From an uncultured Wenzhouxiangella sp. (GTDB taxonomy: Bacteria > Pseudomonadota > Gammaproteobacteria > Xanthomonadales > Wenzhouxiangellaceae): a stretch of 64,000 nt of DNA. Where the stretch lies: positions 1-64,000 of the forward strand of contig CAJXNL010000011.1 in the NCBI GenBank assembly GCA_913057195.1, given 5' to 3'. Under the pieces are notes generated by a model. It saw nothing but the letters and a program-made list of their open reading frames with translations, ran no database searches and was not told the origin of the DNA. Below are positions 18,243 through 30,710 of the stretch, piece by piece; positions within the stretch are counted from its first letter, which is position 1, and the number at the start of each line of letters is the position of its first letter. The position numbers were made by a program, and so were the translations under genes.

Positions 18243-18794
18243 GTGGCCTATATCAAACCCAAACCCCTTAAGGCGTATCCATGGCCGGTTCGTTGGGTCT
18301 TGAAACGCCAAATTCGGATCTATGGTGAAGTTCTGCCGCCGAGCTTTCTGTGGGGGCGAATGCCGGGATTATTTTTTGGGCTGTTGGCCATGTTGGGCCT
18401 GTTTTCTCGAAAACGCTTTTTAATTCCAAAGACCACGCGCGCATTGGCCTCGATTCGGATCGCGCAGCTCAATGGCTGCGACTTCTGTGTGGATCTTAAC
18501 GCCCACTTATTTTTTGAGGCTGAAGGTCAAACCCATAAAGCCGAGCACGTGGCCAGCTGGTCCAATTCAGAAGGCATCTTCACAGCCCAAGAGCGCGCCG
18601 TACTGGAGTATGCCGAGGCCATGACAAGTCATTGCGATCAAATCACCCAAAGCACAATTGACACGCTGAAAGCACATTTTAGCGATGATGCCGTTGCCCA
18701 ACTGACCGCATGGATTGCCTTCCAAAACATGAGTGCGAAGTTCAACACAGCGTTGGGCGCTGAGCGCCACGGGTTTTGTCAACGGCCTCAGTAG
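18243..18794 (+). CDS. carboxymuconolactone decarboxylase/AhpD-like protein
   Basis: A 183-aa alpha-helical protein of the AhpD/CMD superfamily: RALASIRIAQLNGCDFCVDLNAHLF carries the CxxC-like pair and downstream His, followed by ERAVLEYAEAMT and LTAWIAFQNMSAKFNTALG. Such proteins act as peroxidases, reductase adaptors or decarboxylases; the substrate cannot be read here. I chose GTG 18243 because AAGGAG lies 7 nt upstream; longer in-frame starts exist at 18225 (ATG) and 18195 (TTG). Its 3' end overlaps the convergent ghrA-like gene by 7 nt. Confidence 0.82.
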   Translation: MAYIKPKPLKAYPWPVRWVLKRQIRIYGEVLPPSFLWGRMPGLFFGLLAMLGLFSRKRFLIPKTTRALASIRIAQLNGCDFCVDLNAHLFFEAEGQTHKAEHVASWSNSEGIFTAQERAVLEYAEAMTSHCDQITQSTIDTLKAHFSDDAVAQLTAWIAFQNMSAKFNTALGAERHGFCQRPQ

Positions 18795-19711
18795 CCTTGA
18801 GATAAATCCACCAAGCCAAGCGGCGTTTTGTTCGCCTGGACGCGAACATAGCTTTGTGCCAAAAGCTCAGCCGCCTCTTCGGGCCGGGTTAGGGCAGCGC
18901 AGTGGGGAGACACTGTGATGCTTTGGTGTGACCAAAAGGCATGGTCCTCGGGCAGCGGTTCGGTCTCGAAGACATCAACAATGGCGCGGCGCAAGTGGCC
19001 TTGGTCGAGTGCTTCGATGAGGTCTTCTTCGATCAAATGGGCTCCGCGCCCCACGTTAATTAAAACGCTGTGTCTTGGCATGGTGGCCATCAGCTTGGCG
19101 TTCAAAATGCCGCGCGTGGCGGGGGTGAGCGGCAATAAACAAATCAGGTAGTCGGCGTCGGCAGCCATGGCCATCAAGCCGTCCTCACCCCGGTGAACGG
19201 TCACGCCGTCGATCTCGCCGCCTTGGTGTCGCCATCCCAACACTTCAAAGCCCAAAACATTCAGCGCATCAGCGGTGGTTCGCCCCATGTGCCCCATGCC
19301 CAGAATGCCCACGCGCGCCGGCCGATGCGGTGCCCACGGCGCCCACTCGTGACGCTGCTGCTGATGTTGGAATCGGGCAAAGTCACGCCAATCGGCAATG
19401 ACATGGCCCACCAGCCAAGTGGCCATGTCTTGGGCGAGCTTGGGTCCAGCCAATCGACCGACGGGCATTGAAGGCGGGATGCTGTCATCTAAGATCAGAT
19501 GCTCAATGCCAGCGCCGAGCGAGCTGATCGCCTTCAGATTGGGCAAGCTGGCCACCAGCCCCGGCGGGTGCTTCCAAAGCACGGCAAAGTCGATGTCACG
19601 CGCTTGACCCAATTCCGGCCAAAGGCGAATGTCGACGCCCGGGAGGTGCGCGGCCAGATCGTCAGCCAGCGGCTGATTGTCCCGATCGGGTGCACAGATC
19701 AAAATCGCCAT
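18788..19711 (-). CDS. ghrA: glyoxylate/hydroxypyruvate reductase A-like 2-hydroxyacid dehydrogenase
   Basis: A 307-aa NAD(P)H-dependent reductase of the GhrA branch, converting glyoxylate to glycolate or hydroxypyruvate to glycerate. It has LKAISSLGAGIEHL, the nucleotide-binding VGILGMGHMGRTTADAL, LICLLPLTPATRGILN, NVGRGAHLIEEDLIEAL with the catalytic Arg region, DVFETEPLPEDHAFW (Glu) and SPHCAALTRP (catalytic His). No clear ribosome site precedes the ATG. The preference for glyoxylate is inferred from subgroup resemblance. Confidence 0.87.
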   Translation of the reverse strand: MAILICAPDRDNQPLADDLAAHLPGVDIRLWPELGQARDIDFAVLWKHPPGLVASLPNLKAISSLGAGIEHLILDDSIPPSMPVGRLAGPKLAQDMATWLVGHVIADWRDFARFQHQQQRHEWAPWAPHRPARVGILGMGHMGRTTADALNVLGFEVLGWRHQGGEIDGVTVHRGEDGLMAMAADADYLICLLPLTPATRGILNAKLMATMPRHSVLINVGRGAHLIEEDLIEALDQGHLRRAIVDVFETEPLPEDHAFWSHQSITVSPHCAALTRPEEAAELLAQSYVRVQANKTPLGLVDLSQGY

Positions 19712-19738: not shown

Positions 19739-21040
19739 TTAAGGTGACTCGTCACCTGGGTGGCGCTGCCGGTAGCGGTCATACAGCCGGCGCGCTTTGA
19801 CATCGGACAAGGCGTAGCGCGCCCCGTCAATCCAGACGTGGGTGATTTGTGTCATGGGCTCAAGTGGGTGGCCGTTGGCGGCAAACAGCGTGGCCCGCTT
19901 GCCAGGCTCCAAAGAGCCCAGCTGATCTCCCACGCCCAAGATCTCCGCTGGCCATAGCGTCACCGCCTTCATTGCGATGTCTGGATCCAGTCCGTGGGCC
20001 ACCGCGGAGCCGGCCTGAAACGGCAGGTTGCGGGCGTTGGCAACGTCCATCCCGCGGGTGGCATCGGCAATGGCAAATTTCACCCCGGCCTCAGCCAAAA
20101 CGCGGGGCGCTTTGAAGCTGGCGTCATAGCCATCGTGGCGACGCATCGGCAGGGCGTATACGTTTTTTAAAATCACGGGGATATCAGCATCGGCCAGGCG
20201 TGAGGCAATGTGTTGAACATCCGGCGTGGCGACCAGCACCACGTTATCAAAGCCTTGCGTGTCCGCCCAGTCGAGGGCAGCCTCCATCACGTCATATCGG
20301 TTGGCATGCAGCATCAAGGGCGTCTCACCGGCCAGCAATGGGCCCAGCGCTTGAAGTTGGTCATTGCGTGGCGGTCGCTCACCATTGCCGGCCGAGGCGG
20401 CCGCGTCGGCTTGATGCCAGTGACGGGCCTGATCCAAAACGCTGTTGATGCGCGATAAGTCCTCGTTGTCTTCATCATCAACGGCGCCAGGCGGAAATGC
20501 GATGTGCTGGCCGGCCTGCGAGGCGATCAGCATCTCCTCCCAACTCCAGCCATCCAGATTCATCACCGCCGAGTGCCCCTGAATTAACCCGCCTCCAGGA
20601 ATGATGTGGGCCGTCAGGATCCCGCCGGCGATTGAAGCGGGTAAGAGCTCGGAGTCGTGATTGACCGCCACCTCGACGTTGAGCGCGGCGTTGATCTGAC
20701 CCATCTCACGGGTATCGACGGTGCCTGCCACTGAGCTGATTTCGGTCAGTCCCAGCTGCGTGGCGGGATGCACAAACCCCGGATAGAGGTGATGGCCAGT
20801 GAGATCGATGACGGTGGCATCAGCGGGAACATCAAGGTCGACCCCGACATCCACGATCTTGCCATCGGCCATCACCACCTGGGCCTGTTCGATCGCCGGT
20901 GCGCTGATGGGGTGAACGGTTGCGTTCTGTAAGACGGTCACTTGCGCCCACGCAGCCGCGCTGGGCAAGATCAACATCACAGCGCCCATCAGCTGTTGTG
21001 CAGCACGCTTAGTTGGCATGGAAAACACAGTATTCATCAT
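19739..21040 (-). CDS. exported amidohydrolase-like protein with a degenerate metal site
   Basis: A 433-aa amidohydrolase-superfamily protein with a signal peptide (cleaved near AAAWAQ, residue 33). It keeps the N-terminal beta-sandwich strand pattern and the C-terminal LGSLEPGKRATLFAANGHPLEP-VTHVWIDG, but the metal-binding HxH after YPGF is HPA (His91-Pro-Ala), and the late H-x-D segment is FAIADAT, with Asp only. Classical metal-dependent hydrolysis is therefore doubtful. It overlaps the 3' end of the upstream paralogue by 32 nt and is the last of three tandem genes. It could be a pseudoenzyme partner of the intact paralogue. Confidence 0.8.
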   Translation of the reverse strand: MMNTVFSMPTKRAAQQLMGAVMLILPSAAAWAQVTVLQNATVHPISAPAIEQAQVVMADGKIVDVGVDLDVPADATVIDLTGHHLYPGFVHPATQLGLTEISSVAGTVDTREMGQINAALNVEVAVNHDSELLPASIAGGILTAHIIPGGGLIQGHSAVMNLDGWSWEEMLIASQAGQHIAFPPGAVDDEDNEDLSRINSVLDQARHWHQADAAASAGNGERPPRNDQLQALGPLLAGETPLMLHANRYDVMEAALDWADTQGFDNVVLVATPDVQHIASRLADADIPVILKNVYALPMRRHDGYDASFKAPRVLAEAGVKFAIADATRGMDVANARNLPFQAGSAVAHGLDPDIAMKAVTLWPAEILGVGDQLGSLEPGKRATLFAANGHPLEPMTQITHVWIDGARYALSDVKARRLYDRYRQRHPGDESP

Positions 21041-22496
21041 GATCCAATTCCGAGGGTCGGTAGCCTGTCAAATGACGGGCAAAGTTAAATGTATGTTGAT
21101 GACCAGGTGTCGCCTCCTCCGAGGCTTGGGCCTCATCGGATGATGAGCCACCTTCGTCCAGTGCCCGAGCGATCAGCGCTTGGCGCTCTTCGGCAATGGC
21201 CTGTTGCATGCGCTGATCGGCCTGACGATCGAAGTAGCGTCGTCCATCCACCCAGGTCTGTTGAACTTTGCTAAAAGCACTCAACGGGTGGCCATCCCAA
21301 AGGACCACATCAGCGTCATGGCCCTCGGTGATTCGGCCGATGGCATGACCTGCACCGATTTGATCGGCCGAATAAGCCGTGATCATTTTAAGCGCCTCGT
21401 GCGGATCCACACCCCCATACCGAACCGCTTTGGCGGCATCAAGATTCATCCGTCTGGCGAGCTCGGGGTTGTCAGAGTGCAGGGCGGTGAGAACGCCGGC
21501 TTGATGCATGATCGCCGGGTTATAGCCGATGGCATCGGTGGCTTCGGCTTTGAAGTTCCACCAATCGATGAATGTCGATCCACCCACGCCATGCTTGGCC
21601 ATTTGCGAGGCAATTTTGTAGCCTTCTAAAACGTGTTGGATGGTTCGGATGCGGAAGCCAAATGACTCGGCAGTGCGCATCAACGCCAGAATCTCATCGG
21701 CGCGATAGGCATGCGAATGAACATCCAACTCGCCATTCAAGATTCTGGCAATCGCGTCCATCTCGTGATTGGGCCGAGGGGGGACCTGAGTACGCGCTGC
21801 GCGTCCGGTGGGTGCATCATCAAGATCGGCCTGATAGTCGGCTGCCTGCTGAAATTTTTCGCGGATCACCTGCGCCACGCCCGGTCGGGTCTGGGGGTAG
21901 CGCGGTTCGGCAGGGCGCCAATTGCTTTGTTTGGGGTTCTCTCCCAAGGCAAATTTTATGCCCGGTCTCGCCTCGTCGAACACCAATTCGTCCGGGGGCG
22001 CTCCCCAGCGCAGCTTGATCGTGGCCATCTGTCCTCCGATGGCGTTGGCCGAGCCATGCAATAAATTGATGGTGGTCACCCCACCGGCCAGCTGCCGATA
22101 GATGTTGATCGACTCCGAGTCGATCACGTCTCGAATGCGCACATCCGCTGTGCTGATGCGCGAGGCCTCGTTCACCCCACCCAAAATTGCAGCATGCGAG
22201 TGGTTATCCACAATGCCCGGGGTCAGGTGGTGACCACTGCCATCAATCTCCAAAGCGTCTGAAGGTGCGGAAAGATCAGGCCCCACCGCTGCAATCTCAC
22301 CGCGGCGAATGAGCACATCGGTGTTGTCCAAGATGCCCTTGTCGGTCGCTGACCAAACGGTGGCGTTGCGAAAGACCACCGCATCGGGCTGAGGCGGTTT
22401 TTGGCTGTTCCATGCTTCGATATCCGGTGTCCAAGTCTCCGTTTGCGCCACCGCCAGGGTGGACGACAACAACAGACTGCTGAGTAAGTACCGCAT
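21009..22496 (-). CDS. exported metal-dependent amidohydrolase
   Basis: A 495-aa amidohydrolase with signal peptide (MRYLLSSLLLSSTLAVAQ). The metal ligands look intact: His99 and His101 in TPGIVDNHSHAAI, later histidines in LDVHSHAYRADEI and RTIQHVLEGYKIA, and the Asp of LHSDNPELA. The GIKFALGENPKQSNW block is typical of imidazolonepropionase-like and peptidase-like amidohydrolases whose substrates are unknown. It starts 1 nt inside the upstream gene's stop (TAATG) with AGGAGG upstream, so the two are coupled. Periplasmic location is inferred. Confidence 0.85.
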   Translation of the reverse strand: MRYLLSSLLLSSTLAVAQTETWTPDIEAWNSQKPPQPDAVVFRNATVWSATDKGILDNTDVLIRRGEIAAVGPDLSAPSDALEIDGSGHHLTPGIVDNHSHAAILGGVNEASRISTADVRIRDVIDSESINIYRQLAGGVTTINLLHGSANAIGGQMATIKLRWGAPPDELVFDEARPGIKFALGENPKQSNWRPAEPRYPQTRPGVAQVIREKFQQAADYQADLDDAPTGRAARTQVPPRPNHEMDAIARILNGELDVHSHAYRADEILALMRTAESFGFRIRTIQHVLEGYKIASQMAKHGVGGSTFIDWWNFKAEATDAIGYNPAIMHQAGVLTALHSDNPELARRMNLDAAKAVRYGGVDPHEALKMITAYSADQIGAGHAIGRITEGHDADVVLWDGHPLSAFSKVQQTWVDGRRYFDRQADQRMQQAIAEERQALIARALDEGGSSSDEAQASEEATPGHQHTFNFARHLTGYRPSELDHDEYCVFHAN

Positions 22497-24196
22497 TATT
22501 GCGCCTCCTGGGTTGAGCGGGTTTGAGCCGCGGTCATCTGGGGGCTGGCAGCCGCCACTCGGCGCTGACCACGCAAGGTGAATTCACCAAAAGGCCCTGT
22601 GCCGTTGCCGCGCGCGCTGTCACCACTGATGGTTAACTTCAGCGTGATGGTGCCTGATCCACCAAACCGAGCGGAGTCGAGGCGCGCTGTGACCTGGTCA
22701 TCACTGACTCTTGCATCGTTCAGGGGGGATTCATTGCCCATCACCGTCAAAGTGCCGCCCAGGTCAGTGGGCGTGCCGGTGAGCACCAGCTGAGCCTCCA
22801 CGTCCCCCATGGCGCCCATGCCCAGGGTCAGCGCCCAAGTGCCCACAGGATCGACCGAAGGTGGTTCGATGGAGGCCAGCTCAAAACGTTGACCATCAAT
22901 CCATACATCGGAAATGATCGGTTCTTCAGTGATCAACTCGCCCTCGACCACCAGTAAGTTCGCCATCATGCCAGGCGCAATTCGACCGGCGCGGTCACTC
23001 AGTGCCAACCAATCGGCCGGTTCGGTGGTCACCATCGCCAGCGCTGCATCTGGATCCAACCCGCGTTCAACGGCTTTGGCCAAGTTTTTGAGGAAGTCTG
23101 TCGGTTGGCCCATGCCATGGCTTGAGAGCATGGTGGGCAACCCAGATTGATGCATGATGTGGGGATTGTCAGGCGCTCGATGCCAGTGTCTGAGCGCCGC
23201 CAACGAGACGTTTCGGTCGTTCTCATCTTCGACATCCGGGGTGGTGGGGAAGTCAAGCGGCACGATGTGGACCACATCGTCATGACGCTCGAGTTCGCTG
23301 AGGCGTTGATATTCATGGCCATGGCCCACAATCGCCAGGCGGGCCTCATCAAACTGAACAAACTCCAGGATCCGAAGCGTGTCGAGCACATCCTCAGAAT
23401 CAAACACCAACGGTGTCCCCCCGTTGATGGCGCTGTCTAATGCGTCCAGCCCTTCAAACCACTCGGGCCGAGGTTGGGCCGGGTTCAGTGCCCATGCCGC
23501 GCGCGCCTGCGATTGCCATTGAGCATCAGAGAACGTTTGACGCACCAGTGCCACCGCACCCATCAATGAGCTGGGAAACTGACGCCGGCCCATGCGCTCA
23601 TCAAAACTGGCAAATTGACCAAACCGCGGGTCAATCACATTGCCAGACAGTCCACCCTCGCCCAAGTTGGTCACCACGCCTGAACCTCGCAACAGCCCGT
23701 GGCTGGGTGCGAGGACAGCGGTCGTAAACCCCGCTCGACGCAGGGCGTCAATCCGATCTTCAGGCCAGTGTGCAGCCGCGATGCGCGCGTCGGGGCGAAT
23801 CAGGGGGTGGCGGCCGGCCGGCGGCTCCGGCGGCTCATCACTGCCGCCGTCGGTCGGTTCTGTGTCAATCACCCAGTGCGGTTCAATCAGTCCGGGGTAG
23901 ACCGTCACGGGCGCGTCACCGTCGGCGCGCTCAAAGCGGTGGATGCGCGCATCGGCAGGTATGTCAATGTCAGATCCCACGGCCTGGATCACACCGTCGC
24001 GCATCACCACATGGCCCGAGTCAATCACCTCGCCCGGGGCAGGCACAATGCGCACATCGGCCAAGACGTGGGTCTGCGGTGTGGGTTGTCGAAGGTCTTG
24101 AGCGCCAACGACAGTCACGGGGCACAACAGCAAGAACATGAGTGACCACGGTAGGCTGGGTCGCCACCGAGTGGGGCGGGTCAATGAAGGTTCCAA
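22496..24196 (-). CDS. exported amidohydrolase-like protein with a C-terminal beta domain, metal site lost
   Basis: A 566-aa protein whose start is TTG 24196 with GAGGAG 6 nt upstream, followed by a basic-hydrophobic signal peptide (WSLMFLLLCPVTVVGAQ). The amidohydrolase scaffold is recognisable (YPGLIEP, GLDPDAALAMVTTEPADWLAL, RIAPGMMANLLVVEGE), but HxH is HWV (107-109) and the late Asp motif is SSHGM. A C-terminal domain of about 110 residues, rich in beta strands (GTWALTLGMGAMGDVEAQLVL through FGEFTLRGQ), is appended. It is the first gene of the trio; function is unknown. Confidence 0.78.
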   Translation of the reverse strand: MEPSLTRPTRWRPSLPWSLMFLLLCPVTVVGAQDLRQPTPQTHVLADVRIVPAPGEVIDSGHVVMRDGVIQAVGSDIDIPADARIHRFERADGDAPVTVYPGLIEPHWVIDTEPTDGGSDEPPEPPAGRHPLIRPDARIAAAHWPEDRIDALRRAGFTTAVLAPSHGLLRGSGVVTNLGEGGLSGNVIDPRFGQFASFDERMGRRQFPSSLMGAVALVRQTFSDAQWQSQARAAWALNPAQPRPEWFEGLDALDSAINGGTPLVFDSEDVLDTLRILEFVQFDEARLAIVGHGHEYQRLSELERHDDVVHIVPLDFPTTPDVEDENDRNVSLAALRHWHRAPDNPHIMHQSGLPTMLSSHGMGQPTDFLKNLAKAVERGLDPDAALAMVTTEPADWLALSDRAGRIAPGMMANLLVVEGELITEEPIISDVWIDGQRFELASIEPPSVDPVGTWALTLGMGAMGDVEAQLVLTGTPTDLGGTLTVMGNESPLNDARVSDDQVTARLDSARFGGSGTITLKLTISGDSARGNGTGPFGEFTLRGQRRVAAASPQMTAAQTRSTQEAQ

Positions 24197-26041: not shown

Positions 26042-28702
26042 TTAATCGGCCAGATTGGGCCTTAAGTACCGTTGTGCGGTGGCCAAATCAACGCCTTTTC
26101 TCTGGGCATAGTCGTGAAGTTGGTCCTCGCCGACCTTGCCAACCACGAAGTATTGTGACTCGGGATGAGAAAAGTAATAGCCGCTGACCGCGGCGGTGGG
26201 CCACATGGCAAAGTTCTCAGTCAGCGACAAACCCACGTTCTTCGGCGCATCGAGCATCTCAAAGATCTTGACTTTTTCGCTGTGGTCGGGACAGGCCGGA
26301 TAACCGGGGGCAGGCCGGATGCCTTGGTAGTCCTCGCCAATGAGTTCGTCGTTCGACAACGCCTCATTGTTTGCATAACCCCACAGCTCACGGCGAACTT
26401 TTTCGTGCAACGCCTCGGCCAGCGCTTCTGCCAGGCGGTCTGCCAATGCTTTCAGCATAATGTCGGCATAGTCATCGTCCTTGGGCAGACGCGCTTGAGC
26501 TTTTTCGATTCCCAGTCCTGTGGTGACCGCAAAGCAGCCCACGTGGTCTTGGTGTGGCGCGTCAAACGGGGCCACAAAATCAGCCAGACACAGGTTTGCT
26601 GAGGCTTTGTCAGATTGTTGGCGCAGGCCGATAAAGCGCGTCCACTCGGTTTGGCGCGTCTGGTCGGTATAGACAATGACATCGTCCCCATCACTGGCCG
26701 CCGGCATCAGTGCGCACACCGCTTTGGCCTCAAGCCAGGACTCTTCGACGATCGTTTTGAGCATCGTCTGCGCATCGTCCCAGAGCGACTGCGCGGCTTG
26801 GCCCACCACGGCATCTTGCAAAATATCCGGATAACGTCCGGCCAGTTCCCAGGTTCTGAAAAAAGGCGTCCAGTCAATGTAGGACACCAAATCGGCCAGC
26901 GGCCAATCGATCACATGCAGCCCGGGGTGTTGGGGCATCGGTGGCGTGTAGTCATTCCAGTCGATGCGTTTGGCACGGCGTCGGGCCTCGTCTAAACTCA
27001 AAAGCGGTTTTTTTGATGTCTTTTGTGCCGTGCGCTCACGAATCTCTAAATAGTCGGCTTGGATGGATTTGATGTAGTCGGGGCGATGGGTCTGACTGGT
27101 CAACTTTCTGGCGACGTCCACCGCTCTGGAGGCGTCTTTGACCCACGTGACGCCATGCGGGTAGACCGGGTCGATTTTGAGCGCGGTGTGTGCCCGAGAC
27201 GTGGTTGCGCCACCAATCAGCAAAGGCAGCTCAAAGCCCTCATCATTCATGGCTTGAGCGACCTGAACCATTTCATCGAGTGACGGCGTGATTAAGCCTG
27301 ACAAGCCGATGGCATCGACCTCCTGGGCTTTGGCTTCCTCAAGGATTTTTTCAGTCGGCACCATCACGCCGATGTCATGGATTTCAAAGCCATTGCATGC
27401 CAGAACCACACCCACGATGTTCTTGCCAATGTCGTGAACATCGCCCTTAACAGTGGCCAACAGGATTTTGCCTTTTTTGTCTCCTTCTTTTTTTTCTTGC
27501 TCAAGATAGGGCACCAGGTGTGCGACCGCTTTTTTCATGACCCGCGCCGATTTGACCACCTGCGGCAGAAACATCCGCCCATCGCCAAACAGGTCGCCGA
27601 CATAGTTCATGCCATCCATCAGTGGGCCTTCGATCACCTCCAGCGCACTCGGATGGGCTTGACGAGCCTCTTCGGTGTCTTCGACCACATACTTGTCAAT
27701 GCCTTTGACCAGCGCATACTGCAACCGCTCAGCCACCGGCTTGTCACGCCAGGCCTCGTCTTTGACTTGTTGTTTTCCATCGCCTCTGAACTGATCAGCG
27801 GCCTCCAGTAAGCGCTCGGTCGCATCGCTTCGCCGATTAAGAACCACGTCTTCCACCAGCTCGCGAAGTTTGGGATCGATGTCGTCATAGACGGCCAGCT
27901 GACCGGCGTTGACGATGCCCATGTCCATGCCGGCTTTGGTGGCATGGTAGAGAAACACCGAATGCATGGCCTCGCGCACCACCGCATTGCCACGGAAAGA
28001 AAACGACATGTTCGACACCCCCCCTGAGACATGCGTCTCGGGAAAGCGCTCTTTGAGAATGCGGGTGGCTTCAATAAACGCCAGCGAGTAATTGTCGTGC
28101 TCGGTCATGCCGGTGGCAACGGGGAAGATGTTGGGGTCGAAGATGATGTCTTGCGGCGGGAAACCGGCTTGTTCGGTGAGCAGCTGATAGGCCCGAGACA
28201 GACAAGCCACCATCCGCTCGGTGGTGTCTGCTTGGCCGGTCTCATCAAACGCCATGACCACCACCGCTGCCCCGTAGCGTCGGATTGTTCTGGCTTGCGC
28301 CAAAAACGCCGCCTCGCCCTCTTTTAAGCTGATCGAGTTGACAATGCCTTTGCCCTGCATGCACTGTAGGCCCGCCTCGATCACGCTGAACTTGCTGGAG
28401 TCGACCATGATCGGCACTTTGGCGATGTCGGGTTCGGCTGCGACAAGGTTTAAAAACGTGCGCATGACCGCTTCAGCATCGATCAGGCCGTCATCCATAT
28501 TGACATCAATAATTTGTGCGCCATTTTCGACCTGCTCGAGCGCAATCTCAAGCGCCTCATCGAAGCGCTCTTCAACAATGAGGCGTTTGAATTTCGCCGA
28601 GCCCGTCACATTGGTGCGCTCGCCCACATTGACAAAGCCAATTTCGGGTGTGATGACCAACGGCTCAAGGCCGCTTAAATGGGTGTGGGCCTGCTCGGTC
28701 AT
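26042..28702 (-). CDS. metH: cobalamin-dependent methionine synthase, folate/B12/AdoMet modules (split MetH, C-terminal part)
   Basis: An 886-aa protein carrying MetH modules 2-4: the pterin-binding barrel ([17 protein letters not shown]), the cobalamin domain with [10 protein letters not shown] (cobalt-ligating His423) and the activation domain with [15 protein letters not shown] for AdoMet-dependent reactivation. The homocysteine-binding module is in the upstream gene. I start at ATG 28702, which overlaps the upstream stop as ATGA; longer in-frame starts only extend backwards into metH1. The intact modules and clean 4-nt coupling argue for two genuine genes rather than a recent frameshift. 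Confidence 0.94.
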
Positions 28703-29745
28703 GCCACCATCTCCGAGGTCAACGCCGAGGGCAGTGGCCGTGGCGTGTGCGGCTGAACCGCTTGGATGATCGCTGCCAAGTGTGCAGGGGTGGTGCCACA
28801 GCACCCACCGATGATGTTGATCAGACCTTCTTTGGCAAATGTTTCAATCACCGCGGCCATATCTTCAGGCGATTCGTCGTACTCACCCAGTTCATTCGGC
28901 AGGCCTGCATTCGGATGTGCGCTGACCAGCGATTGTGCAATCTGGCTTAATGCTTTGATGTGTGGTTTGAGTTGATCGGCACCCAAGGCACAGTTAAATC
29001 CCACCGACATCGGCTGCGCGTGTTCCATTGAGTAATAAAAGGCGTCGGCAGTTTGCCCCGATAAAGTCCGACCGCTGGCATCGGTGATGGTGCCAGAGAT
29101 CATCAAGGGCCACTTGGCTTGACGTTGCTCAAACACCTCCTCGACGGCAAAGATGGCGGCTTTGGCATTGAGCGTGTCAAAGATGGTCTCAATCATGATG
29201 ACATCGGCGCCACCATCCAGTAGGCCATTGACCGCCTCTTGATAGGCCGCGCTGAGGTCATTGAACGTGATGTTTCGAAAGCCAGGTGAGGAGACATCCG
29301 GTGAAATGGATGCGGTCCGATTGGTGGGGCCCAGCACGCCAATTACAAAGCGCGGCCGATCGGGTGTGATGCGGCTGACTTCATCACACACCTCACGCGC
29401 CAGCTGCGCCGAGGCTTTGTTGAGCTCATGGCTCAGCGTCTCAAGCGAATAGTCCAGCTGCGAGATGCGGTTGGCATTGAAGGTGTTGGTCTCCACAAAA
29501 TCACAGCCCGCATCGAGAAAGTCTCGATGAATCTGGCGAATGATCTGTGGCTGAGTCAGGCTCAGCAAATCGTTGTTGCCTTTAAGGTCGCTGCTGTGTT
29601 GGGCAAAGCGGTCACCGCGATAGGCCGCCTCGTCTAAGTCATGGCCTTGGATCATCGTGCCCATGGCGCCATCCAGCACCATGATGCGCTCAGACAGTGC
29701 TTCTTGGAGCTGATTCACGCGGGCGGGGTCGTACCATTGCAACAT
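28699..29745 (-). CDS. homocysteine S-methyltransferase module (split MetH, N-terminal part)
   Basis: A 348-aa barrel equal to the first MetH module. It binds zinc and homocysteine through the cysteines in FNCALGADQ and the [11 protein letters not shown] motif. It must work with the downstream 886-aa protein, which carries the folate, cobalamin and reactivation modules. A ribosome site AAGGA lies 9 nt before the ATG, just after the stop of the ArsR-type regulator gene. Order regulator-metH1-metH2 on one strand suggests one operon. Confidence 0.93.
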
Positions 29746-29747
29746 GC

Positions 29748-30710
29748 TTATGATTCCTTAGTCGGCTGGTCGGGGCTCACGCGGGGCGCGGCTGCCAGCG
29801 CGGTGACGATTTTAAAATGGGGCGGTTTGCGTTCGATCGAGGTCACCTCACAAAACTCAACGCTCAGACCGGCTTGATTCATCCATTGCTCGAGCCTGTC
29901 GGGGTGAAACCCAGGCTGCAGGTGACCGAAGGCTTTGACGTGCTCACTGTGCTCATGTTGGTCCAGGGTCGCGCAGACCAAGCGCCCCTCGGGCGCCAAC
30001 ACGCGGGCGGCTTCTTCAATGGCCACGGCAGGTTGGTTGCTGTAGGTCAACGCGTGGAGCAACAGCACGGTATCAAAGCGCCCAGACTCAAACGGCAGGG
30101 CGTGCATGTCGCCCTCATGAAAGTTAACGTGTGGAAGGTGGCTGTTGCGTTCGCGCCCTGCCTCGACAACCTTGGCCGAGAGGTCCACACAATCAATGGT
30201 GGTGGCTTGGGCCGCCAAAAGCTCTGCCATCACACCATCGCCTGAGGCAATGTCCAAGGTCCGTCCCAGCGACAATAAGCGGGTCAACGCGTGTGCAGTC
30301 GCCTCCCAGGTGCGTCCGGGTGAATAGTGACGCTCCATGTCACCGGCCACCGAGTCAGCCCAGCTTCGGCCGGCGGTTCGCCGAGCAAGCACCCCCATCA
30401 GTCGCTCGGCATCGGCATTGATCAGCGCATCATCTAAGTTCGCCTGAAACGTGTTCCACAGCCGGGTAATGTCTGGCGCGTGACTGGACTCGGCCAAGCG
30501 ATAGTACACCGAGACGCCGGCACGCCGATCCACCACCATGCCGGCCTCCCTGAGCTTGGCCAAGTGAGTCGAGACGCGGGGCTGGGCCAAATGGGTAATC
30601 GTCGCCAATTCCGCCACCGTCAATTCCTCTCGCTCGAGCAACGCCAGCAGGCGCACCCGAGTCGCATCGCCCAGCAGGCTGCAATAGCGGTTGATGAGGT
30701 CCAGGTCGAT
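29748..30710 (-). CDS. ArsR-type regulator fused to a SAM-methyltransferase-like domain (SahR-like)
   Basis: About 320 aa: an ArsR HTH ([48 protein letters not shown]) followed by a Methyltransf_11-like domain ([58 protein letters not shown]). This architecture and the metH context match SahR, which senses S-adenosylhomocysteine and represses methyl-cycle genes. The first AUG-type codon in frame is GTG 30656, but that deletes the first HTH helix. Coding similarity runs upstream to ATC 30710, 8 nt after an AGAAGGA ribosome site, with no ATG, GTG or TTG in frame. I therefore place the start at ATC 30710. Confidence 0.82.

Follow-up and report, generated by a model that had tools for sequence, protein, structure and literature searches.

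A conserved trio of exported amidohydrolase paralogues, one with an intact metal site and two degenerate, as a probable periplasmic enzyme complex

Enzymes in which a catalytic chain depends on an inactive homologue are well represented by the M16 metallopeptidases (MPP, SPH2681/SPH2682, IDE, FusC and PqqL), which consist of two homologous halves, with the metal site in one and both required, encoded either as separate proteins or as a single chain (PMC12731061). In the ATCase complex of Pseudomonas aeruginosa, the partner chain relies for both activity and stability on pDHO, an inactive chain of the amidohydrolase superfamily (PMC7053772). The pseudoenzyme field as a whole has been reviewed (PMC10211241). 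Here we describe three tandem genes, AH1, AH2 and AH3, whose products would by analogy resemble both systems without being a member of either. M16 offers the closest analogy for how they are likely to work, but its fold and chemistry are unrelated and it has two halves rather than three subunits. In ATCase-pDHO, in contrast to the trio, the active partner is a transcarbamoylase instead of an amidohydrolase paralogue, and its proteins do not belong to the exported type.

The nearest solved relative of all three products is a Thermotoga maritima amidohydrolase, 3OOQ, a structural genomics entry whose title gives no function. 3OOQ has its metal ligands in common with AH2, but the crystallised protein is the product of a single gene and carries metal ligands itself, and we know of no pseudoenzyme partner for it. 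Our search of the literature, in which subscription journals were scarcely covered, returned no description of an AH1-AH2-AH3 module.

The window, the whole 64,000-nt stretch of DNA that was analysed, comes from an uncultured Wenzhouxiangella sp. and carries the following features.

22496..24196, minus strand: AH1, exported pseudo-amidohydrolase of 566 aa, with a TTG start downstream of AGGAG (placed from the ORF and its upstream sequence); signal peptide, degenerate TIM-barrel amidohydrolase domain and C-terminal beta domain
22559..22861, minus strand: extra beta domain of AH1, approximately residues 446-546; in fused homologues it separates AH1 from AH2
21009..22496, minus strand: AH2, exported amidohydrolase of 495 aa with a predicted intact binuclear metal site
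21009..21040, minus strand: AH2/AH3 overlap of 32 nt, a size shared by several loci of the genus
19739..21040, minus strand: AH3, exported pseudo-amidohydrolase of 433 aa, with the fifth-strand His as the sole ligand kept

The original prediction, made by reading the sequence, described overlaps of 1 and 32 nt, a signal peptide on each protein and an additional beta domain on the first. All three observations hold: the ORFs and both overlaps were recovered, each N-terminus resembles a signal peptide by eye, and the AH1 profile shows the beta domain to be conserved, with approximately eight strands in the AlphaFold2 model of a homologue (residues 464-554 of the fusion in locus L072). Against Pfam, this domain gave no significant match (best MrpH_C, E 0.048). 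Short gene overlaps are typical of split loci elsewhere, mostly 4 or 1 nt between AH1 and AH2, and many loci of this genus have 32-38 nt between AH2 and AH3. Among relatives, a simple signal-peptide test, which internal stretches pass 24% of the time, was passed by 53/53 separate AH1, 47/48 separate AH2 and 87/92 AH3 proteins. Besides the trio, the assembly (1.78 Mb in 29 contigs, 99% complete) contains just two further strong Amidohydro_1 matches.

All three products score above the 25-bit cut-off of the Amidohydro_1 model (PF01979), with 41.5 bits for AH1, 51.2 for AH2 and 33.2 for AH3. Every match of the three to an NCBIfam equivalog model fell far under its cut-off. We rejected imidazolonepropionase HutI (TIGR01224; AH2 53.3, AH3 33.5 and AH1 17.4 bits against a cut-off of 298) and the Xaa-Pro dipeptidase type (NF051886; AH2 42.7, AH3 45.2 and AH1 28.2 bits against 500). 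We also looked around the trio loci for conserved neighbours that could identify a substrate, and found only lineage-specific ones. With no conserved neighbour and no equivalog model satisfied, we propose no substrate.

In the window, a D-2-hydroxyacid dehydrogenase gene (18788-19711, minus strand) starts 28 nt past AH3; as it lies behind AH3 in only five other loci, all of the genus, we do not count it as part of the module. Further along, a putative metH, named methionine synthase by reading its sequence, is split into two minus-strand ORFs, 26042-28804 and 28699-29745, comprising the folate/B12/activation half (920 aa) and the homocysteine-binding half (348 aa). The adjoining ORF at 29748-30656 reads as an ArsR-type regulator joined to a methyltransferase.

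3OOQ is the best solved match common to the three proteins (E 5e-51 for AH2, 9e-30 for AH3 and 6e-6 for AH1); they are paralogues within one subfamily rather than random amidohydrolases. In a tree built from 83 domains, unrooted as to the order of duplication (pair or trio first), a single branch separates each of AH1, AH2 and AH3 from the rest, with SH-aLRT values of 97, 100 and 97. Since every one of these three groups contains members from all three phyla, the degenerate state is old and shared and not a local accident.

A metal site intact solely in the middle gene was the central claim of the original prediction, and it is borne out. When AH2 is aligned with 3OOQ by phmmer, each ligand position in one is matched in the other, and AH2 has H99, H101, K181, H262, H288 and D342 in these columns. 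The corresponding residues are H107, V109, F195, D266, G291 and H360 in AH1 and A93, Q95, H179, H245, A271 and A327 in AH3. AH3 does lack the HxH motif, although the true column reads ATQ and the HPA originally quoted lies two residues before it, out of register. AH3 is likewise degenerate but not wholly stripped of ligands, since it retains the fifth-strand His, H245.

The pattern extends to the relatives. All 108 full-length AH2 sequences have six of six ligands, a count that leaves out two sequences, one cut by a contig end and one by a run of N. None of the six is present in 86/112 AH1 sequences, and the maximum is three. For AH3, 47/104 sequences have no ligand, 49/104 have one and 8/104 have two, the most observed. 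The sixth-strand His is replaced by Gly, Ala or Thr in nearly all AH1 and AH3 proteins, and the Asp is missing in most.

To compare loci, we searched 101 relatives with the AH1 sequence alone and with profiles of AH2 and AH3, together with phylum samples comprising 200 genomes of Pseudomonadota (inferred to be the phylum of the window), 198 from the phylum to which a Bacteroidetes record belongs and 149 from that of a Phycisphaeraceae record, and retrieved approximately 120 loci. The relatives of the trio that were collected belong to Pseudomonadota, Bacteroidota and Planctomycetota. Few Pseudomonadota overall have the module (4/200 genomes matched), and its spread there is patchy; the AH1-AH2 fusion form occurs in approximately 30% of the sampled Bacteroidota genomes. 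The conservation of the trio in other genomes, proposed as a check on the original prediction, thus spans three phyla, with a single gene order: AH1-AH2-AH3 in 102/102 complete loci scanned with the three profiles.

Among the 101 relatives, full-scale AH3 (>480 bits) was found in 53 genomes and full-scale AH2 (>640 bits) in 53; the AH2/AH3 mismatches (G021, G028, G001 and G042), and for AH1 also G008 and G012, trace to contig-end cuts or fragments. No degenerate member was found in a genome provably without AH2, one of the two results that would have refuted the original prediction. Candidate exceptions were discarded because of contig ends (L039, L042, L044, L047, L063, L064, L080 and L117), a string of N in the deposited sequence (L110), a spurious partial match (L095) or an AH3 present elsewhere in the genome (L130). 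A second copy in genome G538 (L102) shows AH2-AH3 without AH1 within the short stretch covered. In G340, AH3 lies approximately 0.97 Mb from the AH1-AH2 fusion gene, yet it is retained. The trio is dispensable, as a complete congener (G003) is without it. Another congener, G011, carries a fused AH1-AH2 plus AH3 (L067, G011:C5:9500-23500) in which all three parts are much more divergent, as if the whole set had been exchanged by transfer as a unit.

The 102 complete loci show four architectures: 47 pair an AH1-AH2 fusion with a separate AH3, 44 have three genes, 8 encode one polypeptide (1321-1663 aa), and 3 join AH2 to AH3 beside a free AH1. Mapped on the AH2 tree, the fusion of AH1 to AH2 was gained or lost at least five times and that of AH2 to AH3 changed at least once, so linkage has changed repeatedly. 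An inactive homologue is consistently found with, or fused to, the active chain, as expected of a pseudoenzyme partner. The natural AH1-AH2, AH2-AH3 and three-part fusions go beyond the idea with which the analysis began and are the strongest evidence for this interpretation.

Purifying selection acts on all three genes. In unsaturated pairs, pairwise Nei-Gojobori estimates give dN/dS of approximately 0.05-0.35 for AH1, AH2 and AH3; these are whole-gene averages that do not locate the site of constraint. The pair L051/L052 (dS approximately 0.45) gives 0.13, 0.11 and 0.17 for AH1, AH2 and AH3, and L056/L058 gives 0.24, 0.15 and 0.19. Values well below 1 for the degenerate members are what the original prediction asked to see. 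Mean top-residue frequency is 0.45 in AH1 and 0.61 in AH2; AH1 evolves faster than AH2 and is therefore under looser constraint.

Related loci form a separate, common class with a simpler, two-gene version. In these sister modules, an intact AH2-like protein accompanies a degenerate AH3-like protein of approximately 410-425 aa, a pairing found in all 15 loci fetched for this comparison (L158-L172) and in six further ones (L091-L094, L096 and L097), and fused in L113 and L114. Like the trio, every locus examined has one intact AH2-like gene beside one degenerate AH3-like gene; unlike the trio, the sister modules have no AH1-type subunit, and they match the AH2 profile at 208-378 bits compared to 640-810 for the trio. 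An active chain beside a degenerate one is the norm in this part of the superfamily, and the trio adds AH1. A separate locus of approximately 9.5 kb in the Phycisphaeraceae-phylum sample (L112, G519:C1:521500-531000) contains several tandem amidohydrolase-like ORFs, mostly AH3-like by weak scores.

As an approximation to predicting the complexes from separate chains, we modelled two natural fusions with AlphaFold2. The AH1-AH2 fusion L072 (1048 aa, 44-row alignment) was predicted with pLDDT 85 and pTM 0.85, and the AH2-AH3 fusion L117 (850 aa, 14 rows) with pLDDT 86 and pTM 0.87. The models thus place the barrels of these two-barrel chains of 850-1050 residues relative to each other with predicted confidence, where pTM speaks for the overall arrangement and not for the interface. 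Because a linker forces proximity, confident packing in a fusion is no proof that split chains assemble. VIA-align superposed 3OOQ on each model: on L072 it covers the AH2 part (Z 45.4, rmsd 2.3, 372 aligned), on L117 the AH3 part (Z 46.0, rmsd 2.4, 363 aligned). The structural matches listed for L072 are taken up by its AH2 part; for AH1, the sequence match to 3OOQ supports an amidohydrolase fold.

We consider it likely, and the simplest account, that the trio forms one periplasmic enzyme complex, probably 1:1:1, with AH2 as the catalytic subunit and AH1 and AH3 as pseudoenzyme subunits. AH2 would be the only catalytic chain, with a predicted binuclear centre (HxH, carboxylated Lys, His, His and Asp) that may hydrolyse a putative substrate of the amide, cyclic amide or peptide-like type. 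AH1, with its beta domain, and AH3 would be dedicated pseudoenzymes derived from old duplications of the same enzyme. They would pack against AH2, lend it stability and, as their most likely contribution, complete or gate the cavity of its active site; AH2 alone would then be weakly active, unstable or unspecific. The original reading of pseudoenzymes around one active partner is in this way supported; within a putative physical complex, AH1 and AH3 may act as scaffolds or else in specificity, gating or regulation.

The loss of catalytic residues could also mean that AH1 and AH3 are decaying copies on their way to being lost. We give this virtually no credence: neutral decay is ruled out by the dN/dS values, well below 1, and by conservation of the degenerate state across three phyla, the reading frames are open throughout, and the signs of decay that would have overturned the original prediction are absent. 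It is very improbable that the three are co-transcribed yet independent proteins, with an operon that reflects tandem duplication only. Paralogues that arise by tandem duplication do often remain adjacent, but here every linkage occurs fused, one order holds in three phyla, catalysis is lost at the same two positions, and AH3 is retained even when unlinked.

More can be said for two readings in which AH1 and AH3 have functions of another kind. Neither may be dead if its active site was relocated or became metal-independent, and such neofunctionalised proteins could form a multi-step periplasmic pathway with AH2, acting on successive bonds of one substrate; fusion is common for pathway enzymes too. 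In each of the two, polar residues of its own are conserved, with R219 in AH1 at 99% and, beyond glycines and fold residues, near-invariant E100, D109, E112 and R337 in AH3 (97-100%). In addition, 45/104 AH3 proteins retain the fifth-strand His, and a His occupies the Lys column in 60/104 AH3 and 43/112 AH1 proteins. However, a search for an alternative ligand set in AH1 or AH3 found none conserved, with no His or Cys at 90% in either, and the alignment gives the AH3 acids E100, D109 and E112 acidic counterparts in the metal enzyme 3OOQ, which fits inherited structure. On this alignment, AH3 may have preserved a loop function and AH2 the metals. We regard a pathway as quite improbable. Alternatively, AH1 and AH3 may bind and deliver substrate to AH2, or anchor it to other parts of the envelope, in the case of AH1 via the beta domain, with AH2 folding independently of both. 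The additional, conserved beta domain speaks for this possibility, and degenerate barrels can retain ligand binding, as is known generally for pseudoenzymes; on the other hand, there is no specific pointer to a ligand and no conserved neighbour such as a transporter. We think delivery or anchoring unlikely, and it overlaps with the proposed complex, from which it differs only in the role given to AH1 and AH3.

Returning to a complex with AH2 as its catalytic subunit, we incline slightly towards a broader view: a widespread, undescribed class of periplasmic metalloenzyme, a pseudo-active-pseudo barrel heterotrimer in which two dead barrels would build or gate the chamber of the live one, made from one, two or three polypeptides depending on the lineage and related to a simpler active-plus-dead pair. 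Family models call AH1, AH2 and AH3 plain amidohydrolases, and an assay of AH1 or AH3, or one of AH2 by itself, may show nothing. The module represents a common exported enzyme of environmental bacteria (Bacteroidota and Planctomycetota) without an assigned function. Its single-chain versions can be expressed directly for testing the idea of a complex. Together, the split trio, its two kinds of fusion, the single chain and the two-gene sister make an unusually clean natural series in which to ask what preserves a dead paralogue across very long periods.
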